From positions 8,065,001-8,129,000 of the forward strand of contig OX419755.1 in the NCBI GenBank assembly GCA_948567375.1: DNA of 64,000 nucleotides, read 5' to 3'. The translations under genes and the position numbers were made by a program. The number at the start of each line of letters is the position of its first letter. Position 1 is the stretch's first letter. Of the stretch, positions 8,861 to 60,998 are shown piece by piece. This stretch comes from Lunularia cruciata (lineage: Eukaryota > Streptophyta > Marchantiopsida > Lunulariales > Lunulariaceae). The notes below the pieces were generated by a model. It was not told the origin of the DNA. It searched no databases and saw only the letters and a program-made list of their open reading frames with translations.

Positions 8861-8869
8861 GCTGATCAC

Positions 8870-11800: not shown

Positions 11801-11808
11801 TCTGTATT

Positions 11809-11816: not shown

Positions 11817-11941
11817 AAAGACCGGATGTTTGAGTAATTGCATCTGTAGAATTGAGATATTAAAATTCGCCTTTGGAAGGGCTGTCCTGTCTATCCTAGT
11901 TATACTTTTTCTGCATCGATTAGGAGCGTTAGGAGCGAACT

Positions 11942-11996: not shown

Positions 11997-12279
11997 GTAA
12001 TCTTCCTGTAGTGCCAGTAATCACTCTCGATTTGCATGCTCTGCTCCGGTGTTCTAGTGATTCACGCTTTGGAGGACCTTGAATTGTTCATATGTATAAG
12101 CAGCATTTAGCTTTGGGTTTCTAATGGCTGCCGCACGGATTCAGTTGTCCTGTGAACAAGTAAAGCACAATCTGGCGAAATAGTATCCTTGTCGAACACA
12201 TATACTAAGTTTCCACCAGGACATGACCATCTATCTCAAATTTCTCCAGTATTATGTAGTTAATCTTTTCTGTGTAGTC

Positions 12280-12682
12280 TCAAAATTGTCGCCAACATGC
12301 AGGATTTGGCATTGACTGACAGAAAAATACAAGAAAATTGGATGCAGGAGTGAAACTGCAAGAGTTAAAGCAGGTGAAGGTAATTCGTGCCATCCGACCA
12401 GGCAATTTCAGTTCGATTTGCTTCCTAGAGAAATATATACCAAGCGTCAAAACTGCGAGAGCACTTGCACGTTGGTATTGCCACTCCTGAGAGGTCTGCT
12501 TGATATTCTGACTCTGGCTCTCGCTCGGCCATTGCAATTTTTCAGACAAGTGTTGGTCGATCTCAGACTTTGGAGCTGCAAAGCAGTGCAGTGAGTTTAT
12601 CATTCATGCATTTTACAACTTTGCCCGCTGCTGCCCTTGCTGCACACAAACATGTTGACCCAACACCAGGGTGAGCAGCAGC
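12280..12682. other. End of block D1, short ORFs only
   Basis: In the partner a 120-codon plus-strand frame is open (61488-61850), but the equivalent here is broken by small indels. A minus-strand 107-codon frame (12280-12603) is open here. Neither resembles a known protein. Confidence 0.3.
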
Positions 12683-14480: not shown

Positions 14481-15297
14481 TAGGGAAACGTTTGTTTGTT
14501 TCTCGTTTTAAAATAGGACTTCTTAAAACGTTTTAAAACGCGTTTTAAAAGACCACGATTTTTTTTTAAATGGTTTTTTTATATTGTACGGAGAACATCA
14601 GAGTTCATCAGGGCCAAAAGAATGATATACAATGACTCGGGTATATAAAAAGGATGATTGAAGCCGGTTCATACCATTATCAAGATATCCAATTCGCACA
14701 AGGCTTCTTCAAGCAAATTGCAGGATGTATTTTCGGATTATTTGACCTAGATGAAACAACTCAGCTGCAGTGCAAACATTTAATACACATTGATTTGAAC
14801 ACCACGTCTTCAAACTCCTGATCGAAATGCTCTTGGTCAGCCCCTCGCTTTACACCTTAGCCAGTGACATTCATATTTGATAAAACAAAGAACAATCAAC
14901 TTGTGGAGCAAGTACCCTTGTCAGACAAAGTCACACAGACCCTGGAAACCCTAAACTTCTTTGTCTGCTCGAATAATGGGACTACACAGGTGTGGAGCAA
15001 GTACCCTTGTCAGACAAAGTCACACAGACCCTGGAAACCCTAAACTTCTTTGTCTGCTCGAATAATGGGACTACACAGGTGTGGAGCAAGTACCCTTGTC
15101 AGACAAAGTCACACAGACCCTGGAAACCCTAAACTTCTTTGTCTGCTCGAATAATGGGACTACACAGGTGACAGACTCGCGTGCACCAAGAAAAGAACGA
15201 AAAGAACGTTTTGTAAAATAATTTAAAATAATTTAAAACAATTTAAAACATTTAAAAACGTTCTATTAGCCGCAGTAGTAAAATGAACGTTTCAATA
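14481..15297. mobile_element. Non-autonomous hAT-like element, 817 bp
   Basis: The ends form a short terminal inverted repeat. The left end is TAGGGAAACGTTTGTTT, and the right end read in reverse is TATTGAAACGTTCATTT. An 8-bp direct duplication AAAATGGC flanks it (14473-14480 and 15298-15305). The uninterrupted R copy at ~63735 shows the empty-site structure, with one target copy only. An 8-bp duplication and a TA(G)GG-type end are features of the hAT superfamily. There is no transposase frame. Subterminal AT-rich palindromes (TTAAAACGTTTTAAAACGCG on the left, repeated AATTTAAAA on the right) and a three-unit 89-bp tandem array fill the interior. Confidence 0.75.
14903..15169. repeat. Three perfect 89-bp tandem repeats
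   Basis: Units at 14903-14991, 14992-15080 and 15081-15169 start GTGGAGCAAGTACCC and end ACTACACAGGT. I see no difference among them. Each unit contains AACCCTAAAC, which matches the plant telomere repeat once, probably by chance. Perfect identity in an otherwise diverged neighbourhood indicates recent expansion or an assembly effect. Confidence 0.95.
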
Positions 15298-20689: not shown

Positions 20690-22530
20690 TCAGACAAAGG
20701 GGAAGAAGAAGAGACTTGGGAAGATACATAGTTTGTTCTAAACTTGTAGGACCAAAAAAAAAGGAATGTACTACAGGATCAGAGAAGGACATGAGAGAGG
20801 AGGTTGTGGTGTTAGAACCAATGCCATTAAGATCCATTAGAGAGGAAGAAGCCACCAAAGAGCCACAAGATTGAGCTGAGTGCTTGAATGCCCAAGAACT
20901 TTGGCCTAAATTTCTTAACAAGGCTAAAGTCATGCAACAAAAGACTGACCAAATAATTAATCATGCCAAAGAGAAGTATGTCCAAATTCCAAATCTTGCA
21001 CCAAGGGCTGTGAGCCGACATGTTTCTCACTCAGGATGAACCTCTGATGGCTATTATGGTAGCGCACCATGGACTAAGAAGGCAAGGAACCCCAACTCCA
21101 TCATACTCCTCCAAGGCTAACACTCCAAGACTCATGACATTGCTCACTAGAGAACTCAATGAGAGAGAGATAGTTGCAAATGAAAGGATGATGAGTTCTC
21201 CCTCACCCCTTGTTTATATACTTGTGAAATAGCTACGTACCAAAGTTACTAATTCCCAAAGTAACTGAAGTTACTAGACTAAAAGTCAAGTAAAGTCAAA
21301 AAGTAGAAAGGAATATCCATTCACATGGGCATCTTCCCCCAAGCATGTGGTCTTATCTTGACCCAACCACTAAGTCAAGGATTCCTTCACATGGGCTATC
21401 CTTGAATTAAAGAAGAATCCAAAACAAAAAGGCTTGCGGGCCCAAGAGTTCTCAACTCTTTCCTCAAAGCCAAACACCTAGGAATAATACCAAGTCAACA
21501 CACTAAAATCCAAAATAGTGGTGCTCATCTTTTCTAGTTCCTCTAAAGTAAGGTCCCCTCTATCTTAGCTATGACTAAATTTAGCTAACCATGACTAATA
21601 TAGAACAATCCTTTTTCTCTATAGAAATAATATCTCTTAAGTACTTGTAATACCAAGCTAAATATCACAATACCACACACATGCACAAATGGGTCTTATA
21701 GGGCATAGATAGAAACTGGAGAGGAATCAACACCCTTAGTAATAGTGCTAGTACAAGAGAGAACCAACTTTGTGATACATTCAATTGGAGTTGAGTACAA
21801 GCATTTCAAGAAGGAATCCAAAGAAAAATTTTGTGGCAAGTGACAAGAGTTGGACAGCACTTGAAATGAACTGAAGGAGGGCCGTGATCAAGTTGCCACC
21901 TTAGAAGTTCAATTTGGAGGAGTATTGGAAAGAGGTGGCACTGCAACTAGATTGCTTGACTGAGGAATTGGATAAAAAAAAGACCAAGTAGGCAAAGAGT
22001 AGCCGCTTGCAAGAAGCATGGAAGGCAGAGTGAGATACTTGGACTCAACACAAGGACAAAGACTAGCTCAAGACTATTCATCAGATAGAAGAGTCCCGTA
22101 ATTTCTTCATTGAGAAGCTAAAGGAGGAAGTAAAACTTCATGCATCATAGATAAAACATCATGAGCTAAACATCAATGTTGAAAGATTAGAGAACCAGGC
22201 CTACAAGAAGGATAAGATGAACTTTCTATCCTTATACTTGAACAAGAACTTCACAAAAACTTGCCAAACTTTTTTGTTAGAAATAGCTAGATATCAAGCC
22301 CAAACTAGTTAGTTAGTTAGGTTCCTTAAGGGTAATTATAGTCTATCAACCCCAGCAATTATAGCAGAAGGCACCTTGCCAAGAGGAAGTCCTTCAAAGG
22401 CATTGGCATTCTAAGTAAATAGTCAGATACTTGGAGTTACATGTAAGTATCCGCACTTGGAATTGTATCTACTTCACCAAGTGCAGTTGGAATTCTACAA
22501 GACTTTGGAGTTGTAGTTTAAATAAGGCTA
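20690..22530 (+). pseudogene. Coiled-coil protein remnant (P2), split by a solo LTR
   Basis: It carries the same acidic and coiled-coil landmarks as 1-1110: SIREEEATKEPQD near 20830, KFLNKAKVMQQKTDQIINHA near 20910, then after the LTR the LQEAWKAE and IEKLKEE stretches. The frame is broken by many stops. Without the LTR the sequence reads through CACCAAGGGCATAGATAG, as P1 does with small differences. Confidence 0.5.
21009..21700 (-). mobile_element. G1 solo LTR, 692 bp, TSD GGGC
   Basis: On the plus strand it reads TGTGAGCCGACATG... to ...CAAATGGGTCTTATA, the reverse of the G1 LTR. A 4-bp duplication GGGC flanks it (21005-21008 and 21701-21704). P1 shows the empty site. The terminal TGTAAC has decayed to TATAAG. 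Confidence 0.92.
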
Positions 22531-23480: not shown

Positions 23481-24498
23481 GGCCAAGAGGAGCATGATCA
23501 TCCAATGTCTTATGCTAGTAGACATATGGTTTTAGTACAAAAGTACTACTCAATCATAAAGAAAGAAGGGTTGGCATTGATCTTTGGTCTCAAGAAGTTT
23601 AGACACTACTTGATTGGAGTGAAAGCCAGCATTAAGGATAGGCTAGGGAAGAAACATGCAAATCCTAATTTATTATCTAGGGCCTTTGATTATCATGGAG
23701 TTGAACCAATGGATGATTCCTTCCCCAATGAGGAGCTCATGACAATCTCAACCACTCAAGAGGTTCCAATGGAGTACAAGGAGATTGCGGACTTTGTTAC
23801 AAGAGGTACCTATCTAGAAGGTGTGCATGCTAGAGGGAGGAAGGCCCTTGCAACAAGATCTAGACCTTATACAATGGTGAAGGGTATTATTTTTCACCAA
23901 GGAGTAGATGGTTTATTTAGAAGAGTAGTGGGTAAGGAAGAGTCTATCCTACTCATAAAAGAGTTTCATGAAGGATTAGTGTGTGGGGGACACTTTGCAA
24001 AAAAAGTGATTTCTTGCAAGATTTTAGATGCAAGTTACCTTGTAGGGTGATTTTCAAGGATTGTCTTGATTATTGCAAAACTTGTCATATTTGTCAAGCT
24101 TTTACTAGAAAGTCTACTTCTACTTCCCCTCTTAGATCAATTCCATTGTTAGGACCTTTTGGGGAACCTTTAAAGATTTTGTAGGTCCTCTTAATAAAAC
24201 CCCAAAGAACAGTTGGTACATTGTGGTGGCTAATGATTACCTTACCAAGTAGGTTGAGGCTAGTCTATTGAGGGACAAGAATGAAGATGAAGTTGGTAGA
24301 TTTCTTTATGAATGCATTAACACAAAGTTTGGGTGCCCTTTGGAGTTGGTTTCTGATAGAGGAGAAGAGTTTATAAGAAGTATCACTATAGCTATGCTAT
24401 CACATTTCTCTATCACAAATAGAGTAAAAATATACAACAAGCCAAATTCCAATGGGTTGGAAGAGAGAACCAATCAGACCTTGTGCATGATGTTGGCC

Positions 24499-25190
24499 TG
24501 TAACACCCATTTGTGCATGTGTATGGTATTGTGATATTTAGCTTGGTATTACAAGTATTTAAGAGATATTATTTATATAGAGATAAAGGATGGTCCTATA
24601 TTAGTCATGGTTAGCTAAATTTAGTCATAGCTAAGATAGAGGGGACCTTACTTTAGAGGAAGTAGAAAAGATGAGCACCACTATTCTGGATTTTAGTGTG
24701 TTGACTTGGTATTATTCCTAGGTGTTTGGCTTTGAGGAAAGAGTTGAGAACTCTTGGGCCCGCAAACCTTTTTGTTTTGGATTCTTCTTTAGTCCAAGGA
24801 TAGCCCATGTGAAGGAATCCTTGACTTAGTGGTTGGGTCAAGATAAGACCACATGCTTAGGGGAATATGCCCATGTGAATGGATATTCCTTTCTACTTTT
24901 TGACTTTACTAGACTTTTAGTCTAGTAATTTGACTTACTATGGTAATAAGTAACTTTGGTACGTAACTATTTCACAAGTATATAAACAAGGGGTGAGGAG
25001 GTACTCATCATCCTTTTATTTGCAACTATCTCTCTCTCATTGAGTTCTCTAGTGAGCAATGTCTTGAGTCTTGAAGTGTTAGCCTTGGAGGAGTATGATG
25101 GAGTTGGGGTTCCTTGCCTTCTTAGTCCATGGTGCGCTACCATAATAGCCATCAGAGGTTCATCTTGAGTGAGAGACAAGCCGGCTCACA
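24499..25190 (+). mobile_element. G1 solo LTR, 692 bp, TSD GGCC
   Basis: It begins TGTAACACCCATTTGTGCAT and ends GCCGGCTCACA, flanked by GGCC (24495-24498 and 25191-25194). Removing LTR and one GGCC restores continuity of the host integrase reading (ATGTTGGCC then AAAGGTGCAG), so the empty site can be inferred. The TATA box TATATAAA is at 24979-24986. Confidence 0.95.
24979..24986 (+). promoter_or_regulatory. TATA box of the G1 LTR
   Basis: TATATAAA is followed by CAAGGGGTGAGGAGGTACTC. It is conserved in the other G1 LTRs (near 42580 on the plus strand, and in reverse near 21219 and 35511), which marks the U3/R promoter. Confidence 0.7.
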
Positions 25191-27111
25191 GGCCAAAGGT
25201 GCAGAAATGGAGGGGGTTAAAGATCATTGGGACAAGAAGATCATGCAGTTTTGTGGGAGTATAGAACAATCATGAAGACTTCCACAAAATATTCTCTATT
25301 TTATTTGGTATGTGGTATTGATTCTACCTTACCTATTCACTTGATCGTCTTACATTTTAATGCATTCATAAGAGATTAAAGAAAGCACAAGGAGATGATG
25401 TATAGAAGTCAAGGAAGGATCAACTCATCAAATTGGAAGAGGCAAGAGCAGTTGCTATGGTCTAAGTGGAGCAAGCCATAGAAAACAAAAGGAGAGATAT
25501 GACAAGAGGCAAGGCAAGAAGAAGTTGCAGTCCTTCAAAGAAGGGGACTGGATAAAGTTGTTTGATTCTATTTGATCCAAGAGAGTGCAAAAGAAGTTTT
25601 GCTTAAGTACTTTGGACCTTTCATAGTGGAGAAGGTGTGGAGCAATTACAAGTATGATCTTAAGGAGTTGGGAGGACAACACTTTGACAGGATTAACCAT
25701 GATAAGTTGAAGTTGTATCATAGAAGGTAGAGAGACCTTCACTTTGAGGACAAACTAAAATTTTAGTCCAAGTGTAAATGTAACTCCTACTTGTGCATGT
25801 GTGTGGGATAATGATATGTAGTTTATTATTATAAGTATTTGAAAGATATCATTTATATAGATATAAATGATGGTTCTACATTAGTCATGATTAACTAAAG
25901 TTCCTCATGGCTAAGATAGAGGGGACCTTACTTTAGAGGAAGTAGAAAAGATGAGCACCACTACTCTGGATACTAGTGTGTTGACTTTGTATCATTCTCA
26001 GGTGTTTGGCTTTGAGGAAAGAGTTTAGAACTCTCGGACCCACAAGCTTTTTTTTTAGATTCTTCTATAGTCTAAGGATAGTCCATATGAAGAAATCCTT
26101 GACTTAGTGATTGGGTCAAGATAAGATCACATGCTTAGGAGAATATTACTATGAGTATGGATATTCTTGTAGTCTTTTGACTTTTACCCTAGGAACTTGA
26201 GTTACTCTATTAATTAGTAACTTTGGTGTGTAACTATTTCATAAGTATATAAACTAGGGGTGAGAAGATATTCATCATCTTTTCATTTGCAATTATCTCT
26301 CTCGTATTGAGTTCTCTAGTGTGACAACCTAGCAAATATCACTTTTGCGGTAATCGGGTAAGTAAAGTTTGTTCCCGCAGAGATACGAGTCAGAATTGGT
26401 CAAATACAAAGCAAATAATAACAATGTAGTTCTTCTTGGTTGCATCTTTAATCTCTTAGGTAGAAACCACACCCAAAAGAGAGTAACAAGTACTGACTCA
26501 TAGTCTTGTCACAAATTCACACTCCTTAATCACAACTCCAACAAATCTTTCCAAACAATCTTGATTGTGATGATTTAGGCTCTCTCAAAAATGGCAATTC
26601 ACTGCAAAACGACTTTGCCTCAGAATTGTGTTCCACCCCTTCATTGAAGGCACAACTTCCTCAATCAAAATTGCTTCACATCAACTTTGCACTACACTCA
26701 CAAATATAGAATACTACCAACACTACAATTCCTCTCGGATCTGTCAAGGCATTGCTTCGATTGCACTTCACTCAGGATCAAACACATAGAATGAAAATCA
26801 AGGCTACGGAATCCAACATCCAACAAGCATACTGACTTGCACTTCAAATTTCTCCAAACACTCACAAACACAATTACAAAGCTGATACTTGGAATCAAGC
26901 TCAAGAGATGAGCATTGCTTCACAACACTTCGCTTTATCTATTCTCAGAATTATGAGCACTAAACAACAATTCTCTCCAAATGCTACTCTTAAATAGTGA
27001 ACAAATTGACAGTTCTAACAACTATACCGTTCTACAACAACTCTTCTAACCTGCAGATCCGAAATGACAATGCACCTCTTCATATCTACCTCTTCAAATC
27101 TCAAAATGTTA

Positions 27112-29606
27112 CTAGTCTGATCTGATGTCTACTTCTTCCTCGGCTATCAAACCCAAACCCAAAGTAAATTTACTTCCTATTATTCTATCCGTGGGTTTCA
27201 TATCTTCTACTTCTTCTACCAGATCCAGCAATTCTCTTTCTTGATCTGAAATTGCACTAGTGGGTAATCTATCTAACTCTTCATCTCTTGACCCACTCTT
27301 CTCCAATGTCTCCATTTCTAACTCCAAAGACATCTGCACTCTTATGTTATCTACTTCGGGTTTGGCTCTAACGTCTTTCCAAAGTTTTTCTATCTTTATT
27401 TTCACTAAGTCTAATCTAATCGCAATATTGTCTTCTACTTCTTAGATCTTCCTGTCTACATGAGTTCTTAAACTAATCAACAAGGCATTCAAATCAGTAT
27501 CTTTTGCCTATCTTTGCCTCGTCTCTTGCACCAACAACTTCAACTCGTGCAGCCTTGTCTCTTCAATTTGAACGCTAGACTCTGTACTCAACATTGCATT
27601 CATTATGAGGACTATCTCCTTCAACGGCTCCAATCTCATCTTCCTCTCTCGCTCTTGATCTGCGAGCCAGTCCTCCCTATACATTGCAAATTCCGCTTTG
27701 AACTTGGCTTTTACCGTCTCCTTCTCCTTCTCCTTTTGGACAACTCTCTCCTCCTGATTACGAAGTAACTCTCGTAATCTCTCTTCTTCCCTATACCATG
27801 TTGCCAACTCTCTTTGCCAGAGTTGCTTCTTCTCTTCTACACTCTCCATCACCCTATCAAGCTCTTGATCCTTTGCTGCGACTCTTGCCATAGCATGGAT
27901 AACTTCTACTCTTGAATCAGCAAATTGTTGCTTCAAGATCTCGTATTCAGCTACTTGTCTTTCTCTTGCTATGTCACTCTTCTTAACAAGATCATCTCAA
28001 TATCTCACTTCTCTCTTCAGGTCTTCAATTACCTAAGTCCTCACTATTGCCTCCGATCGTAGTACTTCCCTCTCCTCCTCACCTTGGGTTATACTCTTCT
28101 TCAACTCCGAGTTCTCTTCTTCTAATCTTGACAACACCTGCAAAACAGTCTTTACCTCTGGACAAGTCGACTGCATCTCCTTCTTCTTGTACTCTAGCTT
28201 CACCAACAAAGGACACACCACCTCCCGTAGGTACTCGACTCCATCGCTCAAGATTACTTCTCCTTGCATAGCCACTTCTCTTTGCACTTCTTGTTCATCC
28301 GATACTCATCTTCTTCTTTGCATTCTTTGTATCGGAACGGACACCTCGCTTCCCGAGCTTGCATTCGCTTCTTCTTGCACATTACTCGAACCTGCATTGT
28401 ACTTTGCCTTATGTCTCCAGCGGACTCCTCTCTGAACTGCAATCTTCTCTTCTGCCTTGGGTACTTCGTCTTCCAATGTCGTGTTGTCCTTGGCCTCAAT
28501 CTCTGCCTGCACTTCTTCTTCTTCTTCTTCTGCAGCAACTGGTGCCAATGTCATTTCTCCTCCTTCATCGTTGTCGCTACTCATATCTCCACTTTGTAGC
28601 ATTAGCTCAGGCTCCTCTTTGTGTTCCAAGTCTTTGGTCTTGCGCTCGGCGTCACCTTCCGAGTCTTCAACTTCCGACTCGATCACCACCATACCTCGCC
28701 TCGGGTTTCCTCTCTTGGTCTTCCGAGGTTTCATCGTGTCTTCGGCTTTGCCCTACCGACTTCTCTTCTTTGAGTTTGGAGTACTCACTTCGATCTCCAC
28801 ATTCTTCCCTGTCTTCTTGTAGTACTCATCGGTGCTTCTGATTTGCAAGATGTACTGCTGCTCCTCTACATTGACCTCCTTTCTCAAATCGGGATGGAAA
28901 TGCAACACCATCCAAGTTTGCTCCACCAAGTTCAGCAAATTTAACCCGAGGTAGAAATGAGCTGCAAACGGCACGATGTAGTGTGGAGGCAATTTATCCC
29001 GCATATTCCACACCATTTGTTGCGTTCTCCCATGGAAACACCTCACCCAATTGATTGGTTCTCTTGAAAACAACTTGTGAAAGAACACCGCTTGGTGTTT
29101 CATCACATAGGTTGTTCTCTCTTGCTTCAGGATTACCATCAGAGCACTCACAATTCCTCTCTTGACAGGGTCCTTGTAACTCTTGACTTTGTACCCATTC
29201 TTTGTCCGCTTTGACGAGAATGCATCTCTCACCTCTTGGGTTTCTTGAGCTATCTCTCCCTTCCCCAAGAACGTGGCCCCTTGCTCCGAGCCTGCTTCCT
29301 TCTCGAGTACTAGTCTCCAATCCGACTCTGTCTAGCAAGCCGGATTTCCTCTCTTCCCTTCTTCCTCAGGTCCATCAAGACACTCGATGATTTTTGTCAT
29401 GAAACCTGGAAACTCACGTTCCAGTTCCACGCCAAGAAGGTAATCCGAAGTTGGCTCAAGACTTTGATCCTAGCAATCACATCTGACCTCCAAATTGCAT
29501 GATTTCTCACTGTGAATTTGGAGTTTCTCTTTCCTCCTCCCATCTCTCCTGCTTTCTCACTGTCTCTTGATTTCACTCTTGCAACTTCTCCCTTACACAC
29601 TAACAC
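27112..29606 (-). pseudogene. CCE coiled-coil protein (copy 1)
   Basis: The N-terminal piece (29397-29606) has WRSDVIARIKVLSQL and FLAWNWNVSF, then frameshifts. From 29268 to 27112 one frame is kept over ~2.1 kb, broken only by single stops. In order: a conserved globular domain (SKRTKNGYKVKSYKDP, VFFHKLFSREPINW, VPFAAHFYLGLNLL, LHFHPDL), a basic then acidic low-complexity segment (EEEEEEVQAEIEAKD near 28500), and a long coiled coil (EYKKKEMQSTCPEV, LEEENSELKK, REEERLRELLRNQEERV, IEETRLHELKLLVQETR). The end is TLGLGLIAEEEVDIRSD. There is no zinc knuckle, protease or RT. Its function is unknown. Particle assembly, as in gag, is a guess. Confidence 0.75.
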
Positions 29607-30010: not shown

Positions 30011-30526
30011 CTTCTTTGGCCATACAAGCGCAATCCAACTTCTCTATACACTTCTTCTTCTTTATTTTGAAAAAAACAAAAAATGTGGGCACCACATCTA
30101 GTGAGTAATGTTTTGAATCTTTGAGTGTTAGCCTTGGAGGAGTATGATGGAGTTGGGGTTCCTTGCCTTCTTAGTCCATGGTGTGCTACCATAATAGCCA
30201 TTAGAAGTTCATCATGAGTGAAAGATAGGCCGGCTCATAGAGCAGCATAGGTAGATGCATCTGCCATAGTGACTAGGAGTGCATTATGCGCTCCAAAGCC
30301 TAGAGGACCATCAGTGGAGTTGGACCCACAATGAGGAGAGCTTGGTAGACAAGTAAGACTTCCCTAGTCTTTTACACTCTCTAAGACACTTTAGATGATA
30401 TCCATGGCTCCTAGCTATCCTAGTGCAAGTGTGGTAGGTGGTGATGGGGTGCATGATAGACTACTTATTATTCAACCACTTGCTTCTACACAAGCTGAGT
30501 CTAGAATGATGTTGGGGACAGATTAG

Positions 30527-31200
30527 TTGATTATGTACTTTTCATTATTCTCAACCAATCACATATTTACATTGGAAGTTGACCCAGCTCTCGTGTTCCT
30601 GTTGGCTACCACACTTTGTGAGAGTAGAGATGATGTGGTTCCTACTTCTAGACAAAGGTGGTTGATATTGGAGCTAACTTGGTTGAGGAGCATGGGATTT
30701 GCTCAAGAACTAGTGATTTATGGCAAACAACAATGGCTAGATTGGAGGAATTACCAACCAGTTTGGCCTTTGAGTGAGCATGATTCACACTTAGATTTGT
30801 CCTATTGGATAACCAAAGGAGGATTTTTTTATGGGACCTTCAAGGAAGGTCTGTACACCATATAGTGTCTTACTAGACTTTGGAGCATAGCCCTTTATGT
30901 TGAGGAAGGCTACAATTGTTGGTTGGGAGCTACGTGAGACCGATGTGGAGAGATGTTCATTTCAAATACAAACATCTCTAGGACGTGGTTCTACAGAATA
31001 CATCACATGTTGAGAGCATGTTACCTAGATTCTATTTGGTCATCTGATTAATAGCTTTGCGGTGAAAGCTCAAGCTATTGCAACAGTAGTTGAGTCATGT
31101 GACGTGCTAGTTGGTGGAGTAGTATTATACTCCATGGGTTTAAGTATTAACTATTGGGGAGGAGACCTCCTAAAGACCAGGTTGGCAATCACATGAAGGA
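30527..31200 (+). pseudogene. G2 pre-protease region and retropepsin
   Basis: 30527-30865 is an open stretch of 112 codons (SRQRWLILELTWLRSMGFAQ, GGFFYGTFKEGLYTI) of unknown role. In a shifted frame, 30867-30887 reads VLLDFGA, a retropepsin active site with Phe where Ser/Thr is expected. It is followed by TIVGWELRETDVE, FQIQTSLGRGS and DVLVGGVVLYSMGLSINYW, the usual flap and C-terminal order of plant gypsy proteases. It is broken by several stops. Confidence 0.65.
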
Positions 31201-31504
31201 CAAGTATGTCACCCACCAGTATGCTTTAGTAGTGGCAATCTTGGTTTACTATACTTTGAGACTATTGCGACATTAGTTTCAACTTCCAATGGTTTTGTTA
31301 CTTGGCTTGATGACTTATTGGAGGGGAATGCCCATGCAAAGGATACTCCAATATTGGAAGAGATCACTTGGATTTGGAGTTTGAGTAGGATCATTCTATC
31401 CATCTTGGATGTTCTATTGTAGAGTTTAGAGGAGGCATTGCAACAACATGTAGATCAATTGGTGCAATGGGCTTGGAGTAGAGGCTTTGTAACACCATGA
31501 GACC

Positions 31505-31952
31505 AATATGAGGAGAGCCTCCAAAGTCAACTACCTTGACACCTCTAAATACCACACCCATTTCTTGGAAATATCCAATAGAGAGAGTATGTCTATTGGT
31601 GTTATTTGGTGGGATTAGCACTAGACTAGCTATGGTACTATAGGTAGGTATACAAGTACAAAGGTATTTGTATGTGGAGAGAGAGGAGATTGCTAGGCAA
31701 GTCTCTCTACATCAAGGTAGATTGAGGAGATATGAAGAGAACCTCTAGAGTCAATTACATTGACATCTCTAAATACCACACCCATTTCTTGGCAATATCC
31801 AATAGAAGGAGTATGTCTATTGCAGTTGTTTGGTGGGATTAACACTAGACTAGCTATGGTACTACTTGCGGGTATACAAGTACACAGGTACTTGTATGTA
31901 GGGAGAGAGGAGACTGTTAGGTCAGTCTACATCATAAGGCACACTTGGCCTA
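31505..31952. repeat. 224-bp tandem duplication covering methyltransferase motif I
   Basis: 31505-31728 and 31729-31952 are diverged direct copies. Both encode NTTPISW, YPIE, then LFGGI(S/N)TRLAMVL and GIQV(Q/H)RYLYV. The duplication repeats the cofactor-binding motif and cannot be compatible with a working enzyme. Confidence 0.85.
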
Positions 31953-32770
31953 TTAATATCCTAAGTTATTAATGATATTAGCAAGCAGGGGCTACCAAAA
32001 GACCATACAAGTAAACATTTCTTTGTTGGGACGTTGGACTTGGAGAGACATGGTCCAATTCATTTGGTGATTTCTGGATGGCCATGTTAGGGATATACAC
32101 ATGGTGGCTCAAGTTTGGCTCTTTATGATCCTCATTTTGGTGTGTTTTGGGGGGTGTTACATATACTACACCATCTCCAAGTTCATCATTCTGTTTCTCT
32201 AGCTTACATTTTGGAAAATGTTCCTTTGATGGGTGATTCTTGCACCTAGATAATGGTGACTACACATTAGGTCAATTCTTGGATGGAACCTACTGTGTTG
32301 TTGGATACAGCCAAAGTGGGATCACGGGCTCATCATCTTGGTCTTTGGTGGACAAACCTCTTACCTAGAGAAGTTTTACAATGCACTTATGATGGGATTC
32401 AACAACTAGACCACTTCACTATTGATGACATCTTGGATGTTGGGTGTCAGTCTCAAATGGTAGTAGTGGTTGATAGGTCACCTATGGTAGTGGTGAACCT
32501 TGTTAGACAACCCAAAGCCACTTTACCCACATTTATGAGTTTTCTAAGCTCTTATGCTTTTTAGGAGGGGGATCTTGGACATGTTTAGGATTTACAATTA
32601 CAATAGTTGGTGGAACCTAACATGCATGAGAGGGAGCGGGTGATGGGTTTTTGCACTAGTATTACCATTGTTCTAATAGTGTTAGAGGCATCCAAGCATT
32701 AGGTATTAGGTCAGGCTATGGACCTAAATTGTTTGACTTGGATTTTGAGCTTTGGCTTGGCAAAGCAATG
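31505..32770 (+). pseudogene. Cytosine-5 DNA methyltransferase-like domain in G2
   Basis: Motifs appear in the order known for C5 methyltransferases. Motif I (SAM binding) is LFGGI.TRLAMVL at 31826-31852, and also in the tandem copy at 31602-31628. Motif IV is GWPC at 32076-32087, with the catalytic Cys codon at 32085-32087 and a stop where Gln is expected. Motif VI is ENV at 32214-32222. A motif VIII-like GSRAHH is at 32319-32336. The target-side region follows. Motif IX-like ERERVMGF is at 32628-32651 and motif X-like LGQAMDLN at 32706-32729. From ~32040 to 32770 a single frame is kept, with stops. It lies between protease and RT in the same orientation, so it was part of the G2 polyprotein. 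Known precedent: methyltransferase domains have been described in some eukaryotic retrotransposons. This copy is inactive. Confidence 0.78.
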
Positions 32771-33349
32771 GAGGATGCGCTTGATAGGCATCACTACTTA
32801 GACACTTGTGAGCTCTATGCCTATCAAGAGGATTCACACACATGTTGGGAGTGATGGACCAAGTAGACATGGTATTCTTAATACATAACTAGTAGCTACT
32901 AGGGAGAGTGGTTTGTTTGGAGTCCATCAAGGTGAGCTTGGTCTACTTGGAATGCGACTAGAGGACGTATGGAGCATGCAGCCAAATTAAAGGGATTTTT
33001 TGACACTGAGGCTAGGACTTCTAATGGTTGGAGGCATGACACCATTGCTCCCAAGGGCCCAGTGTAGCAGCCAATCAGTACGTCTTCCACTTCTATGATA
33101 GTTATAGAGGATACTTGGGAGCCAAATCTTGGACCCAAGCTTACAAGAGAGGAAAGATGGAGAGTTTGGAGGTTCTCAAGGAGCTACACAAGTTGCTTTG
33201 CCTTCAATATGAAGGATTTGGGTGCTCTTAAGGGACTTGGTATTTAGATTGAGTTGACTAGTGATACATCAATTTTTTACATCCTTATAAATATAGTGAC
33301 ATGGAGCAAGCATTGATTTAGAATAGAGTAGAGACCTTTTTGAGACTTG
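32771..33349 (+). pseudogene. G2 linker between methyltransferase domain and RT
   Basis: It is poorly conserved and has several stops. It probably encoded the connector to RT. I see no separate domain. Confidence 0.35.
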
Positions 33350-33960
33350 TTTGGTGGAGATTTCACATGGAGAGTATGCATTAGCCATAGTAATGCCAAC
33401 CAAGAAGGATACGCATGGAAATTACATAGAGAAGCGGATGTGTAGAGATTACCGTCCTATTAATTGATAGATTAGGGCTGATTGGCATGCCATGCATACA
33501 CTATAGGAGATCTTTGCGATTGGGCTTGCAAAGGTCTGAAGTACTTTGGATATTTGAGTAGGATATCATTAGTTGCCAATCAAGGAAGAAAATAAGTCCA
33601 AGATAATATTTTGGGCTATTGATCATCACGGTAAGGATGTGTTATATCAATGGAGGTTCTTACTATTTGGGTTAAAGAATACTTTTGTTGAGTTCTAGTG
33701 GGTCATGGACAAGATCCTAGTAGGACTGGATTTTGCTTGGTGCTTTATTGATGACACTTTGGTCTATAGCACTATTGTGTAGAGCATGAGAGATAATTGC
33801 TGGAGGTGTTTGAGAGGTTGAGATCTCATGAACTCGAATTACATCTTGGGAATTGCAAGTTCTTCCATGAGTATGTTGAGTATTTGGGTCACATATCTCT
33901 CCTAGAGGGCTTGGTGTTAAGCAGGCCAAGGTGGAGGCTATTGCACATATTCCTTGGCCT
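33350..33960 (+). pseudogene. G2 reverse transcriptase
   Basis: The Ty3/gypsy RT order is clear: EYALAIVMPTKKD, CRDYRPIN, STLDI, GYHQLPIKEENKSK, then W.ID.HGKD, YQWRFLLFGLKN and the catalytic CFIDDTLVYS near 33741-33770. This is followed in shifted frames by the GHI-type and ANFY-type C-terminal motifs (VQAFIGLANF near 33975). It is broken by stops and frameshifts. Confidence 0.9.
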
Positions 33961-34082
33961 ACAGATGTGAGTAGAGTGCAAGCATTCATTGGGTTGGCAA
34001 ATTTTTTATCACTACTATGTTAGAGAATTTAGTGTCATTGCCAAGGCCTTGACAAAGTTGACCAAGCCTACACAAGAGTGGT

Positions 34083-34570
34083 GTGGGAGATGCACAAGAG
34101 ATAGCTTTTATAGATTTCAAAAAGCAATTTGACATCTACTCCTACTTTGAGGGTGACCAATCAGAAGATGACCATTTTAGGTTCAATGATTGGAGTAAGT
34201 TGGAGCTTGGAGTAGTGCTCACCCAAAATAATGATGAGGGGAAGGAATTTATGGTGGTTAATGCTAGTTGCTCTAATAATTCAATAAAGACAAAGTATAG
34301 TTCATATGAGAGCAATATAGGCAATAGCACATTTCTAATGTTACCTATTTGGTAGCCCCTTCACTCTCATTATTGATCATCAGCCACTAAACTGGTTGAC
34401 GGAGTTGTCCAGGCTTTCAAAGAAGCTTGCACGATGGGCGTTGATTTTATAGGAGTGTCATTTCACAGTTATTCAAAGACCTAGAGTGGTGAACCATGAT
34501 GTAGATGGGTTGAGTAGAAACCCATATCCTAGCCAACAGGATCAGACCGGAGCACATTGACATGGTGAGA
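34083..34570 (+). pseudogene. G2 RNase H
   Basis: The open frame 34083-34355 reads FNDWSKLELGVVLTQNNDEGKEF then KTKYSSYESN, the typical DWS..G.G.VL.Q..D.G and Y...E of gypsy RNase H. The next part in another frame reads LIIDHQPLNWLTE, ARWALIL, and VDGLSRNP near 34510. It is broken. Confidence 0.85.
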
Positions 34571-35304
34571 TAGATGAGGAGATGGTGTTTGGGTTTGCAT
34601 GCATCTACCGTTCTATGTATATTTTATGAGACTTTGGTGGTATCTCTCTCAATGCATCCAAGAAGAGCTATTGAGGTCACAGATTTAAAGAGGGGAGATA
34701 GTGGTATAGTTCAACAAGACATTCATGATGATGTCTTAATGATGGACTACCTTTGCACTTGTATTGTGGGTGGCATAGTTGGGGCCAAGGAGAGAGACCA
34801 TATCCTTTAGCAAGCCATGTGGTTCAAATTGCATAACACCTTTTGCATGTATGGGAGGATGGTAGAGTGTGAGTAGTACCACTTCTATCTCAAAGACCAA
34901 AATTGGTTTTTCATATTCATGAGGAGCTAGGACATTTTGGAGTAAAGCGGACATATAGCTTACTCTAGAGTCATTATTGGTGGCACAACATGCAGAGTAA
35001 TGTACAATAGTTTTTTGCTAGATGTGTGGTTTGTGATTGAGTTAGAGCATCATTCAATGCTCATATATCATAGTTACATCCATTACTTATCAATGGATTG
35101 GGTTACCATGGGAGTTTGGACTTCACTGGACCTTGATCATTGATTGTGAGTCATCATCGATACATTTTGGTGATGGAGCACTTCTCCAAGTGGATTGAGT
35201 TGGTGGTACTTTCTGACAAGTCCATTGAACGGACAACTTACTTTTTCCTAGATTGGGTTCTTAATCATTTTGGTGCACCAGTGAGATTTGACTGATCAAG
35301 ATAC
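34571..35304 (+). pseudogene. G2 integrase, N-terminal and core start
   Basis: The zinc region near 34905-35030 reads HIHEELGHFGVKRTY and then CVVCD. The core start follows: GSLDFTGP with the first Asp, HRYILV..EHFSKWIE, FGAPVRF. The reading stops at the G1 insertion (35305) just before the second catalytic Asp region, which would span the insertion point (TDQDTKFLGEF when read across). Confidence 0.85.
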
Positions 35305-35643
35305 TATGAGCCGGCCTGTCTCTCACTCAAGATAAACCTTTGATGGCTATTATGGTAGTGCACCATGGACTAAGAAGGCAAAGAACCCCAACTCCATCAT
35401 ATTCCTCCAAGGCTAACACTCCAAGACCCATGCCATTGCTCACTAGAGAGCTCAATGAGAGAGAGATAGTTGCAAATGAAAGGATGATGAGTACCTCCTC
35501 ACCCCTAGTTTATATACTTGTGAAATAGTTACGCACCAAAATTACTAATAATTGGAGTAACTCAAGTTAATAGGCTAAAAGTCAAGTAAAATTAAAAAAT
35601 ATAAAGGAATATCCATCCACATAGGTATATTCCACTAAGTATG
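35305..35643 (-). repeat. G1 3' LTR, distal half
   Basis: It reads TATGAGCCGGCCTGTCTCTC on the plus strand, the reverse of the LTR end with TGTG changed to TATG. It is cut at 35643 by the CCE and continues at 46027-46372. Confidence 0.88.
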
Positions 35644-35767
35644 TGTGGTACCCACATTTTTATTTTTTTAAGTTTTTGTTCTATTTGGAACAAGAAGAGT
35701 CCAGAAAAATTTGTGTTGAACCCAAATGGCATTGGAAGTTGAAGAACTTTACCTTTGGTTTGTAACC

Positions 35768-37960: not shown

Positions 37961-38860
37961 AGACTAGTGAAGAGGAGTGGTAGTGAGTGAAGCTAGGAAG
38001 AATTCATAGGGATTGAGAGTTGCAAGTCCAGGTGACGAGAAAATTGTATTGTAGAAGCACATCACAAAGGAGAGTAGAATGAAGGGAATCAAGAAGTGCC
38101 TTACGGTGGCATCAAGAAACCCAATGATTAAGAGGTTAGATGTGATGGCTTGCATTACTTTCCTTGCATGGAATTGGAACCTAAGTTTTCCCAATATCAT
38201 GGTAGAAATCACAGCCAATAAGTGTGTAGATGGGCCGGTAGTCGTCAAGAAGAAAGGCATTCTGGCTCAATGGACAGAGTCAGATTGGAGATTGGTGTTA
38301 GGAAGAGAGAGTGGGGAAGAGTATGGGGCCACGTTCTTGGGGAAGGGAGAAGTTGCAAAAGAAACCCAAGAGATTAGAAATTTTTTTCACCTCAAAGCGC
38401 ATGAAGAATGTGTACAAGGTGTAGACTTCTTGAGACCTAGTGCATGGAAGTATTGTAGGAGTGATGATGGTGTTGTTCAAATCTGAGTGTACTACCTATG
38501 TAATGAAGCAACAAGCGGTGTTCTTCTACAAGATGTTTGCAAGAGAGCCAATCAATTGGGCAAAGTGTTTTTATCAGCGGATGAGGTAGGTGGTGTTGTA
38601 TTGGAGGACTTTGACACCACCACATTAATTTGTTCCTTTTGTAGCACATTTCTACCTTGGGTTGAATTTGCTAAGTAGCAATGAAAAGAAGAAGATTGTG
38701 TCTCACTTTCGTCCCGATCTGCATTAAGAAGCCAATGATGAGGAGTGACAATACATTTGGCAATTGAGAAGTAATGATGATCATTATGTAAGAATGGGAT
38801 AGGATCAAAATATAGTTGTGCTCCTACCAAGCAAGACAAAGAAAAGTCAACCTAAGGTGG
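37961..38860 (+). pseudogene. CCE protein N-terminal domain (unit 2)
   Basis: The open frame 38079-38486 reads ITFLAWNWNLSFPN, WTESDWRLVLGRESGEE and GATFLGKGEVAKETQEI. Shifted frames then carry YVMKQQAVFF, MFARESINW, FVPFVAHFYLGLNLL and SHFRPDL up to about 38740. It aligns with 28753-29606 of copy 1. Several frameshifts are present. Confidence 0.7.
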
Positions 38861-40770: not shown

Positions 40771-41500
40771 TACCTCTCCTAAGGGAACATCAGTACTATT
40801 TGTTCCAAAGAAGGATGGAGGACTTTGTTTCTATATTGATTACCATGGGCTCAATAAGCAAACCGTGAAGAATGCATATCCCTTGCCTTGGATTGATGAC
40901 TTGCTTGATCAACTAAGTGGAGCATGCTACTTTTCCAAGCTAGATCTTTGCAGCGGCTATTGGTAAATTCCTATTGAAAGAGAGGATGTGTAAAAGATTG
41001 CCTTTTGCACAAGGTATGGGCATTTTGAGTGGAGAGTTTTACCTTTTGAACTCACTAATGCTCCAGTAGTCTTCATGGATCAGATGCATTGGGTGTTGGA
41101 AGGACTATTGGATTGATCCATGGTGGTGTTCTTAGATGATATCTTAATCTATAGCAAGATAGAGGCAAAACCCATGAATCATGTGCAAAAAGTCCTAAGA
41201 CAACTACGACAATGGAAATTTTATTGCAAGAAGTCAAAGTATGCCTTTTGGCAAAAGGAGGTTACCTTCTTGGGTCATAAGATCTCATCAGAGGGGATCA
41301 ATATGGAAGAAGAGAAGATCAAGGCCATTACTAATTGGCCTACTCCAAAGGATCCTAGAAAAGTACGTGCATTCAATAGATTGGCCAATTTTTACCGATG
41401 GTTCATCCACTATTATGCTCATGTGGCTGCACCATTGACTGACCTCTTGGAAAAGAACTTGAGCTTCCAATAGACCACCAAGCATGAAGAAGCATTCCAG
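40754..41500 (+). pseudogene. G3 reverse transcriptase
   Basis: The order is [47 protein letters not shown] (40754-40966), then after stops LPFELTNAP and the catalytic VVFLDDILIYSK at 41122-41157. KVTFLGHKISSEGI-type and AFNRLANFYRWFI motifs follow to 41473. Phe replaces Tyr in YLDD. It has in-frame stops. Confidence 0.93.
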
Positions 41501-41614
41501 AAGTTAAAGCATATGGTGTCTTCAAGACCCATTCTTCAACCATATGATCCTCAACTACCTTATGTGATTGATTTTGATGCTTCTAACTTTGCAATTGGAG
41601 CTATGTTGCAACAG

Positions 41615-41686
<72 letters not shown>

Positions 41687-41910
41687 CTTGAAATGGTATA
41701 TGCCACCAAGTTATGGGGGCATTACCACTTGGGGAAACAAGTGGTCATGCAAACTGATCACAAACCATTGTTGCAGACCTTACACTTGGAACACATGAAG
41801 AGTTGACTTCATCGATGGGAAGAGCAACTCCAATTGTTTGACATCAAACTTGAGTACAAACCAGGTCGGTTCTATGTCATCCCTGATGCTCTATCACAAT
41901 GACCTGATTT
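41500..41910 (+). pseudogene. G3 RNase H, interrupted by a microsatellite
   Basis: PYVIDFDASNFAIGAMLQQE (41555-41615) is a normal RNase H start. The frame then enters the (AT)n tract, which has replaced the middle of the domain, and resumes with HYHLGKQVVMQTDHKPLLQ (41720-41775) and YKPGRF (41853-41870). Confidence 0.9.
41617..41683. repeat. (AT)33 microsatellite inside RNase H
   Basis: A 67-bp pure AT tract. It keeps the frame open only because it translates as Ile-Tyr repeats. The expected RNase H residues between DASN.AIGA.L.Q and Y...LW are missing. Confidence 0.97.
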
Positions 41911-43430
41911 GAAGTCTCTTCCCCTCATCACGGCGGCAATTACATCGGTGTCAATTGACCCCAAGGTCCATAATAAGTTTTGGTTAGCTCTACAACAAGA
42001 TCCCTTCTTCCAAATGGTACATGGTTGTGTGACAACATGCAACAAGAAGTACAATACCTTCTCCTTCAAAAAAGGCCTTCTATTCCATGCGGACCTATAA
42101 CACCCATTTGTGCATGTGTGTGGTATTGTGATATTTAGCTTGGTATTACAAGTACTTAAGAGATATTATTTATATAGAGATAAAGGATGGTCCTATATTA
42201 GTCATGGTTAGCTAAAGTTAGTCATAGCTAAGATAGAGAGGACCTTACTTTAGAGGAAGTAGAAAAGATGAGCACCACTATTTTGGATTTTAGTGTGTTG
42301 ACTTGGTATTATTCCTAGGTGTTTGGCTTTGAGGAAAGAGTTGAGAACTCTTGGGCCCGCAAGCCTTTTTGTTTTGGATTCTTCTTTAGTCCAAGGATAG
42401 CCCATGTGAAGGAATCCTTGACTTAGTGGTTGGGTCAAGATAAGACCACATGCTCAGGGGAATATGCCCATGTGAATGGATATTCGTTTCTACTTTTTGA
42501 CTTTACTTGACTTTTAGTCTAGTAACTTGAGTTACTACGGTAATTAGTAACTTTGGTACGTAACTATTTCAAAAGTATATAAACAAGGGGTGAGGAAGTA
42601 CTCATCATCCTTTCATTTTGCAACTATCTCTCTCTCATTGAATTCTCTAGTGAGCAATGTCTTGAGTCTTGGAGTGTTAGCCTTGGATGAGCATGATGGA
42701 GTTCAGGTTCCTTGCCTTCTTAGTCCATGGTGCGCTACCATAATAGCTATCAGAGGTTCTTCCTGAGTGAGAGACAGGCCGGCTCACAGACCGGATGTAT
42801 GTTCCACCCAAAGTTGATCTCCAACTTGTGCACCTTTAGGAAGCCCAGGATTTGCCAATAGTTGGTCGAATGGGGATGGACAAGACCTTGCGTACCCTCC
42901 AACGCCAATGGTGGTGGCCCAACATGACATAAGATATTTGGGAGTTTGTCCGATTGTGTGAGAGCTATCAGCACTACAAGGCTAGTAACTAGAAGCCAAG
43001 TGGACTCCTTCAGCCACTTCCCATTCCAACTACTTGTTGGGAACATGTGAGCTTAGATCTCATCATCTCCTTGCCCAAGACACAACAAGGTCACACAGCA
43101 ATTGTGGTGTTTGTGGATAAGCTTAGTGAGCAAATCTATTAAGCACCGACAATTGATATTGTGGATGCTCCAACCTTGGTGCAACTCTACTTCAATAATG
43201 TATTCAAACATCATGACATGTCACGTGTGCTCATCTCCGACCGTGATCCTTGCTTCACCGGAAAGTTTTGGCAAGCCCTCTTCTAGATACTTAGTACCAA
43301 GCTTGCCTTGTTGACAGCCTATCATCCTCAAACAGATGGACAAACTGAATGTGCAAATTGCACCTTGAAGATATGATTTGTGCCTTTGTCAACATTTACC
43401 ATACCAATTGGGATGAATGTCTTGCAGCTA
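41911..43430 (+). pseudogene. G3 integrase, split by a G1 solo LTR
   Basis: The pre-integrase region is 41911-42095. After the LTR, GRMGMDKTLRTLQRQWWWPNM and C..CQ-type residues are visible (42860-42990). The core reads WEHVSLDLIISLP (first Asp), IVVFVDKLSE, VLISDRDPCFTGKFW (second Asp) and TAYHPQTDGQTE (Glu) from 43040 to 43355, the DDE triad of Ty3/gypsy integrases. It has stops and a frameshift. Confidence 0.9.
42096..42788 (+). mobile_element. G1 solo LTR inside G3, TSD GACC
   Basis: It begins TATAACACCCATTTGTGCAT (TG changed to TA) and ends GCCGGCTCACA, flanked by GACC (42092-42095 and 42789-42792). The G3 frame reads through when it is removed. It is very similar to 24499-25190, so it is a late insertion. 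Confidence 0.95.
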
Positions 43431-45230: not shown

Positions 45231-46026
45231 CCAATTCTGAGATAGGAAGAGGCAAATATGAAGAGATGCATTGTCATTTCAGATATGTAGGTTGGTAAAG
45301 TTATTAGGAAGCAATTTAGGAAGTTAAATAACTATCAAGTGCTTTGCCTATTTAAAGGAGGCCTTTTTGGTAAAATGTTTTTTACTATTTATTTTCCTAA
45401 GAATAGATAAAGCAAATTGTTGTGAAGAAGTGCTCATCACTTGAACTTAATTCCAAGTATCAATTTTGTGTTTTTATATTTGTGAGTGTGTGGAGGAATT
45501 TGTAGTGCAAGGAAGTGTGTTAGTTTAATGTTGGATTCTACAACCTTGATCTTCATTCTATGTGTTTTCCCTTAGTGAACTGCAATTAGAGCAATGCCTT
45601 GATAGATCTGAGGGGAATTGTAGTGTTTGTAGTATTCTACACTTGTGAGTGTGCAACGCTAAGTTGAGGTGAAGAAATTTTGATTGAGGAAGTTGTGCCT
45701 TCAATGGAGGGGTTGAACACAATTTTGGTGAAGTTGTTTAGAGTGAAGTAGCTAATTTCAAGAGAGACTAAATCATCGCAATCAAAATTTTTTTGGATAG
45801 AATTGAATGAGTTGTGATTATTGAGTGTTAATTTGTGATGAGACTACAAGTTGGTGCTTTTTACTCTCTTTTGGGTGTAGTTTCTACCTTAGAGATTAAA
45901 GATTCAACCAAGAAGAACTACGTGTTACACTTGACTTTGTATTTGACCAATTTTGACTTGTATCTCCATGGGAACAAACTTTACTTACTTGATTACCGCA
46001 AAAGTGATATTTTCCGAGTTGTCATA
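45231..46026 (+). repeat. CCE trailer (unit 2)
   Basis: It aligns with 37200-37960 and with the reverse of 26320-27110 (for example TGGTGCTTTTTACTCTCTTT and TACCGCAAAAGTGATATTTT). It has no coding content. Confidence 0.8.
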
Positions 46027-46372
46027 GCATATGATCTTATCTTGACCCAACCACTAAGTCAAAAATTTCTTCACATGGGCTATCCTTGGACTATAGGAGA
46101 ATCCAAAACCAAAAGGTTTGCAGGCCCAAGAGTTCTCAACTCTTTCCTCAAAGCCAAACACCTAGGAATAATACCAAGTCAACACATTAGAATCCAAAAA
46201 AGTGGTGTTCACTACTAAAGTAAGGTCCCCACTATCTTAGCTATGAATAAATTTAGCTAATCATGACTAATGTAGAACCATCCTTTATCTCTATATAAAT
46301 ATTATCTCTCAAGTACTTATAGTACCAAGCTTAATATCACAATACCACACACATGCACACATAGGTGTTACA
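46027..46372 (-). repeat. G1 3' LTR, proximal half
   Basis: The plus-strand read runs to ATAGGTGTTACA at 46372, the reverse of the LTR start. It completes the LTR begun at 35305. The adjacent TTTACCCCTGGAC (46373 on) is the reverse of the G1 polypurine tract. Confidence 0.88.
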
Positions 46373-47682: not shown

Positions 47683-48018
47683 TTAAGTGATTGAGGTTGT
47701 CATGAGCTCCTCATCCGGGAAGGAATCATCCATTTGCTCATCTCCATCATGATCATAGGCCCTAGATAACAAATCAGCATTTGCATATTTCTTTCCTAAC
47801 CTACCCTCAATGGTGTGGTCATACTCAAACAAGAGTATCATCCACCTTGCTAGCCTCCCTTCCACATTTGGCTTGTTGAAGATGTACTTCAAAGCCTTGT
47901 GATCCATGACAATAGTGGCTTTTCCTCCAATCAAGTAGTATCTACACTTCTTGAGACAAAAGATCATTGCCAACCCTTCTCTTTCTATGATAGAGTAGTT
48001 CTTTTTTGCTGAAACCAT
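47683..48018 (-). pseudogene. G1 RNase H
   Basis: An open stretch of 111 codons: NYSIIEREGLAMIFCLKK, HYLIGGKATIVMDHKAL-type residues, YIFNKPNVEGRLARW, LFEYDHTIEGRLGKKYANAD and LLSRAYDHDGDEQMDDSFP. It is the best RNase H of the family and shows what was deleted in the P1 and P2 copies. Confidence 0.92.
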
Positions 48019-48331
48019 CTACCTACTAGCATAAGCTATTAGATGATCATGCCCATCTTGGTCTAATTGACTAAGAGTGAATCATAAAGCTACATTAGAA
48101 GCATCAGTGTAGAGGATGAAAGGCTTACTCCAATCAAGTTTAGCAAAAATTAGAGTTACAACAAGGGATTGCTTGAGCTACACAAAAGCTTTGAGAGCCT
48201 CCTTGTCTTCCAAATCACCATGTAATCTACACCTTTCTTCATGTAGATGGTCAATGCATAAACCTTGTTGAAAAATGAGAAGATAAACCTCCTATAGTAC
48301 CCAGCCATCACCAAGAAGTGGCATAACTCTG

Positions 48332-49129
48332 TCAAGCTTGAAGGGAATGGAAGGTTTGAGATTTCCTCACCTTCTCAAGATCAACTACTATTCCATCCTT
48401 GGAGATGATGTGCCCAAAAAGTAGACCTTCTTCACATCTAAAAATACACTTCTTTGGGTTGAGTGATGCATTTGCTTCATCCAAGCATTGCAAGACCTTG
48501 ATTAGGTGCTCAAAGCGCTCCTCCTTGCTCCCATAGACACAAAAGTCATCAGTGAAGTCTCTCACAAATTTCCCAATGAAAGGTTCAAACACCTTGTTCA
48601 TGAACCATTGGAATGTGGCTGGAGCATTGCAAAGCCCAAAAGGCATGACCTTGAAAGCATAAGTTCCCTAAGGTGTGGTAAATGTGGTGAGTTGTTGATG
48701 CTTTGCTGCAATCTTGATTTGGTTCTATTAACTATAACCATCTCCAAAACTATACCTCTCATGACATGCAATCTCTTCCAAGATCTCATCAATGAATGGC
48801 AACAAGTAGTAATCCTTCTTGGTAACAACATTAAGCTTCTTGTAATCTACACATACTTGAAACTTACCATTCTTTTTCTTCACAATCACAATTGGAGACA
48901 TCCATTCTAAATTCTCCACCTCAAAGATAAATCTTGCCTCCTTGAGCTTATCAATCTCCTCCTTCACAACCAAAGCTATTGGTGTACTAATGCAATGTTG
49001 CTCTTGGCAAACTGGTCTTACATGTGATTCCACCTCTATTTTGTGCTCCTCCAAGCTGACTTCCTTTAGATCCTTGTAACTAAAAGCAAACATATGGATA
49101 AACTTGCAGAAAATCTCCTTAAATCTCAC
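48332..49129 (-). pseudogene. G1 reverse transcriptase
   Basis: 48728-49129: KEARFIFEVENLEWMSPIVI, VKKKNGKFQVCVDYKKLN, LLPFIDEILEEIA. 48332-48646: MPFGLCNAPATFQWFM and FTDDFCVYGSKEERFEHL, with DD retained in the active site, then FGHIISKDGI. The two pieces are joined by a short frameshifted stretch. The thumb/connection to RNase H (48020-48330) has stops. Confidence 0.92.
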
Positions 49130-60990: not shown

Positions 60991-60998
60991 TCTGGATT

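Follow-up and report, generated by a model that had tools for sequence, protein, structure and literature searches.

Why does a decayed retrotransposon of a liverwort contain what looks like a DNA cytosine methyltransferase? Could a host gene have landed there by chance, or did the element itself carry the enzyme? We addressed these questions for a stretch of 64,000 nucleotides from Lunularia cruciata (assembly GCA_948567375.1, contig OX419755.1, positions 8,065,001 to 8,129,000 of the forward strand), referred to below as the window, in which positions are counted from the first letter. A first-pass annotation, made from the letters alone, had placed a methyltransferase-like domain inside a Ty3/gypsy polyprotein. 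Almost certainly, the locus is what remains of a truncated and now dead Ty3/gypsy retrotransposon copy equipped with a DNMT3-type C5-cytosine methyltransferase, and relatives whose catalytic residues are preserved show the same order of protease, methyltransferase and reverse transcriptase (RT).

Translation of the window recovered every motif that had been named for the methyltransferase METHYLTRANSFERASE. GWPC, ENV, GSRAHH, ERERVMGF and LGQAMDLN lie in a single frame between 31980 and about 32730. The motifs follow the canonical order I-IV-VI-VIII-X, in the window copy as in its relatives (these are the motif numbers that we take to apply). LFGGI is present twice, because the 199-bp segment that holds motif I has been tandemly duplicated (Table). 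The duplicates differ at 27 positions, 19 of them transitions, and the second copy runs into the remaining domain, with a frame change between. Two database searches yielded 70 related proteins, given P numbers here. The decayed window piece (359 letters, X at stops) matches 40 proteins at E ≤0.001, the best with 52% identity at 6e-104, and, in the PDB, DNMT3A (E 1.2e-5). When proteins were aligned onto the window by tblastn, P0001 reached E 5e-93 and P0002 E 4e-91. Chance similarity was rejected: in a control in which P0001, P0002 and P0015 were compared with 200 first-order Markov sequences (modelled on 30801-33500) and with the reversed window, the best E was 1.2. A search of the conceptual frame with the C5-methylase profile PF00145, as proposed with the first-pass annotation, gave a divided answer. 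The window piece itself scores 11.4 bits (E 0.22) against a cut-off of 22, whereas 19 of the 24 relatives scanned in place of a consensus of copies are above it (8/10, 5/7 and 6/7 in three sets).

The window copy is dead. A TAG stop stands immediately 3' of the catalytic cysteine codon, just as had been noticed from the letters. Between 30700 and 33500, relatives cover 26 stop positions, some through just 1-3 alignments, and 16 of these 26 fall where the most frequent residue of relatives is Gln, Arg or Trp, amino acids with codons that one or two C-to-T or G-to-A transitions can convert into stops. The observed/expected ratio of CpG is 0.09 in the methyltransferase domain and 0.15 in the element body; such loss is what prolonged methylation and deamination usually leave behind and is silent on the enzyme responsible. 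Stops, frameshifts and deamination of methylcytosine would have inactivated this copy long ago. The RxR arginines of motif VIII, altered here, are present in 29/33 and 32/33 rows of the alignment. Across the diverged relatives the catalytic cysteine is kept in 31/31 filled rows and Glu-Asn in 35/35, counted over gene models or open reading frames (ORFs), among which broken copies are under-represented. Glu replaces Pro before the catalytic cysteine in two of the 31 rows, one of them P0065.

Does the domain belong to the element that surrounds it? The plus strand from 30242 to 35303 is a decayed Ty3/gypsy body with which database relatives are collinear in tblastn. Matches to P0042, P0050, P0055, P0058 and P0064-P0067 place, one after another on a single strand between 30242 and 35289, gag, protease, methyltransferase, RT, RNase H and DDE integrase. 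The domain sits between a retropepsin remnant and an RT that begins near 33333, all in the same orientation, as the annotation had it. On either side the coding match halts at an inverted piece of one high-copy repeat that resembles a long terminal repeat (LTR).

The same arrangement recurs elsewhere. Species names are attached to 30 of the 70 relatives, each of these 30 from a bryophyte (Marchantia, Riccia, Calypogeia or Sphagnum). In the first of two designs, protease is followed by methyltransferase and then RT. P0050 and P0058 span all three domains (P0058 with a partial protease region); P0017, P0034, P0042, P0057 and others hold the first two, and P0026 and P0055 the last two. The position of the domain that was proposed for the window is therefore found in its relatives as well. 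In the second design, seen in proteins outside the species-named set, the methyltransferase follows RNase H (P0064, P0065, P0067, P0070) and precedes the integrase (P0064, P0065, P0067, P0068); P0068 starts too late to include RT, and P0070 ends within the methyltransferase domain. A PHD finger follows in P0064, P0065 and P0068 but not in P0067. P0064, P0065, P0068 and P0069 are polyproteins of Ty3 type in which a PHD finger accompanies a methyltransferase placed ahead of the integrase; such a finger might read chromatin for a DNMT3 carried by the element. Integrase (rve) matches were obtained in P0058, P0064, P0065, P0067 and P0068. Between the two designs, the RT-RNase H parts are 38-43% identical.

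To which class of methyltransferase does the domain belong? It is predicted to be a DNMT3-type C5-cytosine methyltransferase, with a catalytic domain nearer to DNMT3 than to other classes. In the profile search the family is nearest DNMT3, and the best DNMT2-type match is far weaker (E 8e-5 against 7e-18). The profile also matches DRM2 over the part from motif I to motif IV (E 1.3e-6) and 4onj (9e-9), which we take to be a tobacco DRM. DRM was nonetheless rejected, since its motif order is rearranged and that of the window and its relatives is canonical. DNMT1, MET1 and CMT were rejected because no such entry occurs among 55 profile matches with E up to 10.

Two trees were built. The first holds 37 rows: 36 well-covered rows of the 71 with a domain match (70 database proteins and the window) and one partial DNMT3A row as outgroup. 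The second holds 25, twelve rows of the first having been left out. The first tree joins the window to Sphagnum, Marchantia, Calypogeia and other rows in a group of 25 (100/100); in the second, it falls in a 13-row group that contains every bryophyte-named row of the tree plus others (99/100), which supports the earlier suggestion of a land-plant member. The end branch of the window is long (0.84-0.90), as expected for a decayed copy. For the position of the window relative to its group, an approximately unbiased (AU) test gave p 0.256, and neither a place within the remaining rows nor one next to them is rejected. The first design as a single clade is likewise not rejected (AU p 0.214). The first tree appeared to nest the second design; under the second tree either design may have come first. 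For a prokaryotic source, short patterns matched 12 stretches in genome contigs, none of them relatives by tblastn, and for a viral source they matched 5 and 30 stretches in viral contigs, none of them relatives; both results are weak evidence of absence.

Elements of this kind are already known. KnitGypsy-Dnmt3 of the charophyte Klebsormidium nitens is an LTR Gypsy element with a DNMT3-type methyltransferase (de Mendoza et al. 2018, PMC5890265, here and below as available in excerpt), and with the dinoflagellate DIRS elements of the same paper it shows that methyltransferase-bearing retrotransposons occur in other eukaryotes, as the first-pass annotation had stated. The window element fits the definition given there, a Gypsy element whose coding region includes a Dnmt3-type domain. 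Like the present element, KnitGypsy-Dnmt3 has the Gypsy domain set, an un-rearranged, intronless DNMT3-type domain in the coding region and conserved key residues (PMC5890265, excerpt). Compared by description only, it differs in its charophyte host, in a domain that lies in the Pol polyprotein ORF and in DIRS-like repeats (same excerpt), whereas the present lineage is found in bryophytes and has the domain after the protease and before RT, possibly in the Gag-protease ORF. K. nitens is absent among the species-named matches of our searches for relatives. SymbioDIRS-Dnmt3 of dinoflagellates is likewise a retrotransposon-borne Dnmt3-type enzyme, two copies of which methylate CG de novo in yeast; SymbioDIRS are DIRS elements with a tyrosine recombinase (PMC5890265, excerpt), unlike the present lineage with its Ty3-type DDE integrase. 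DRM2 and its relatives are DNMT3-related, as is the present domain, but differ from it in motif order, as described above. The cellular DNMT3 of plants is a free-standing host enzyme, outside any Gag-protease or Pol polyprotein, unlike the domain described here. In Physcomitrium and other non-flowering streptophytes it shares with the present domain a DNMT3-type catalytic domain distinct from that of DRM (PMC6453930, excerpt).

What would such an enzyme do for the element? Motif X was located in 43 of the 71 proteins scanned. Twelve of these end 89-92 residues past it, before RT; four, all of the second design, continue into the integrase; and, apart from five considered below, the remainder are cut short or end elsewhere. 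Because twelve proteins end about 90 residues past motif X, a Gag-protease polyprotein may have the methyltransferase at its C-terminal end, and we read the first design as a Gag-protease-methyltransferase frame that may stop before the RT frame. Made together with Gag and protease, the methyltransferase would enter the particle, where the protease of the element would cut it loose. Its target would be the newly made double-stranded DNA of the element, within the particle or soon after its arrival in the nucleus. In that case a fresh copy would bear methylcytosine from the start and might either resemble host DNA, escaping sensing or degradation, or be quietly tolerated by the host. That the enzyme is packaged with Gag, freed by the element's protease and turned on the element's own new DNA could well be true, although we would stop a little short of calling it probable. 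Taken as a whole, element identity and self-methylation together, the explanation is one that we favor with some confidence. Going further, one may tentatively envisage an old and distinct land-plant Ty3 lineage whose Gag-protease frame ends in a DNMT3-type methyltransferase, which would be delivered in a Gag-like dose per particle and pre-methylate its own DNA, with a sister design, in other organisms, in which the enzyme lies between RNase H and integrase, often with a PHD finger; this fuller picture is the more doubtful one.

Several observations weigh against this interpretation. Five of the 43 proteins with motif X (P0026, P0046, P0050, P0051 and P0058) continue into RT, possibly through predicted introns; protein ends on short contigs may be contig ends; and the end of the frame in the first design is taken from database proteins, not from DNA. 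In the window, parts of gag and of integrase are missing, and no pair of direct LTRs belonging to the element could be recognized around the body. The AlphaFold model has a mean predicted local distance difference test (pLDDT) score of 59, with a good core and a poor middle part. The literature searched yielded no activity, expression or packaging data on the bryophyte lineage, and the nearest published relative, KnitGypsy-Dnmt3, gave no methylation in a yeast test that was termed inconclusive (PMC5890265, excerpt).

Could the enzyme have another target? It might work in trans on chromatin, on older copies or on the host genome, as a form of self-restraint or to disturb host silencing, and leave the element's own cDNA unmarked. 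DNMT3-type enzymes are de novo methylators, and restraint is discussed as a possibility by de Mendoza et al. (PMC5890265, excerpt). The strong CpG depletion of old window DNA fits heavy methylation by any enzyme, but ordinary host methylation yields it too, and a position beside Gag and protease would place the enzyme in the particle. We consider action in trans unlikely. It is distinctly unlikely that most members have lost DNA methylation and that the domain methylates RNA, for example the genomic RNA of the element, or has a binding or structural role in the particle. The SymbioLINE and KnitGypsy enzymes gave no activity in the yeast test, RNA methylation has been proposed for SymbioLINE-Dnmt (PMC5890265, excerpt), and the two rows with Glu for Pro before the catalytic cysteine would fit such a role. 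However, diverged members retain the catalytic cysteine, ENV and most residues of motif VIII, and the family is nearest DNMT3, with DNMT2-type matches far behind.

Might the long Marchantia and Sphagnum proteins instead be host genes domesticated from an element, and the window copy their decayed relative? Several Marchantia models stop after the methyltransferase without RT (P0041, P0042), and P0042 represents 18 member sequences. Yet remnants of RT, RNase H and integrase lie in register in the window copy, and the many Marchantia loci and the RT-RNase H fusions of P0050 and P0055 agree with a multicopy element; we regard domestication as very improbable. That a host methyltransferase pseudogene landed by chance inside an ordinary gypsy element, as the crowd of nested repeats in the window might suggest, is scarcely credible and was rejected, since Gag or protease is joined in frame to the same domain in one protein in independent relatives from Marchantia, Sphagnum, Calypogeia and elsewhere (P0042, P0058, P0034, P0057) and the succession of protease, linker and domain in the window is the same as in these relatives. 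The reading that we prefer remains that of an element that carried the enzyme as its own.

Table. Remnants of the methyltransferase-bearing element and its flanks in the window.
Feature	Position	Strand	Evidence
Flank: 3' end of high-copy LTR-like repeat, abutting the element	30097..30240	+	repeat comparison
Gag, remnant of C-terminal part	30242..30650	+	tblastn, Marchantia P0042 residues 434-562, 40% identity, E 1e-12; P0046, P0051 similar
Retropepsin-like protease remnant	30825..31157	+	tblastn, P0017, P0034, P0042, P0050, 38-44% identity
Protease-methyltransferase linker, kept in relatives	31159..31494	+	tblastn, P0042 735-841, P0050 248-354, P0006, P0033, 41-46% identity
Motif I (LFGGI) segment, tandem copy 1	31506..31704	+	repeat search; 172/199 identical to 31730-31928
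Motif I segment, tandem copy 2, continuous with remaining domain	31730..31928	+	repeat search, tblastn
Predicted DNMT3-type C5-cytosine methyltransferase domain, motifs I, IV, VI, VIII, ERER, X	31736..32860	+	contains stops and one frame change
Pre-RT region	33110..33342	+	tblastn, P0050 696-771, P0058 963-1032, 48-73% identity
RT and RNase H remnants, several frames	33333..34596	+	tblastn, P0050, P0055 (Pfam RVT_1, RT_RNaseH), 39-56% identity over main pieces
Integrase zinc-binding region and first core part; end of coding match	34840..35289	+	tblastn, P0064, P0065, P0067, P0058 integrase, 31-64% identity
Flank: same LTR-like repeat as 30097..30240, opposite orientation, at end of integrase match	35304..35645	-	repeat comparison

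A Pfam scan of the decayed protease piece itself gave no match. The window is repeat-rich DNA of 39.7% G+C with nested repeats throughout, and scans of it against Rfam and for tRNAs returned no match. Measured per 4 kb, the CpG observed/expected ratio falls as low as 0.03 in old parts and lies at 0.57-0.80 in the blocks that hold the youngest repeats. The high-copy repeat at the flanks is about 695 bp long with TG...CA-like ends and occurs at 21008-21702 (-), 24497-25191 (+) and 42094-42789 (+), with pieces at 30097-30240, 35304-35645, 46026-46370 and 52573-53187. By eye, 4-bp direct repeats are seen at three copies, and an empty site for one copy lies within the window. The two inverted 3'-end pieces that abut the methyltransferase element may represent two separate insertions. 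Well preserved open frames of 148-192 residues occupy 27511-29331 (-), with a CpG ratio of 0.67 where much of the window is decayed; they have no Pfam match, and a partial second copy lies in opposite orientation at 38055-38483 (+). Two 3.8-kb copies (8830-12682 and 58021-61858), 96% identical and of near-normal CpG content, could belong to a young element as LTRs of unusual length; RNase H remnants near them are presumably Copia-like. Other Ty3-like elements have left RT and RNase H remnants at 40838-41905 (+) and 47722-49090 (-), with no methyltransferase match at E 0.001 by tblastn on the window. A better preserved gypsy ORF that covers RNase H and integrase had one weak match, in Salvia, at 25% identity. 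A 70-bp, near-perfect self-complementary tract is found at 41617-41686, and an exact tandem repeat of an 89-bp unit, in about three copies, at 14902-15170.

What does the element mean for land plants? Methylase-encoding Ty3/Gypsy and DIRS elements have been listed, citing others, for stramenopiles, red and green algae and charophytes in a 2019 paper that rests its argument on methylase-encoding transposons being absent from land plants (PMC6338049, excerpt). As judged from sequence, the bryophyte matches contradict the land-plant part of this claim. A methyltransferase-bearing gypsy element of bryophytes appears in none of the titles and abstract openings among the matches listed in our literature search, which left subscription papers and preprints largely outside. 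The presence of relatives in a moss genus and in several liverworts suggests a whole lineage of methyltransferase-bearing elements in land plants. Methylation is among the chief defences of plants against retrotransposons, so that a lineage of elements encoding a methylating enzyme is a paradox, and a testable one: relatives occur in the genetic model Marchantia, in which one can ask by experiment for what reason a retrotransposon would methylate DNA.
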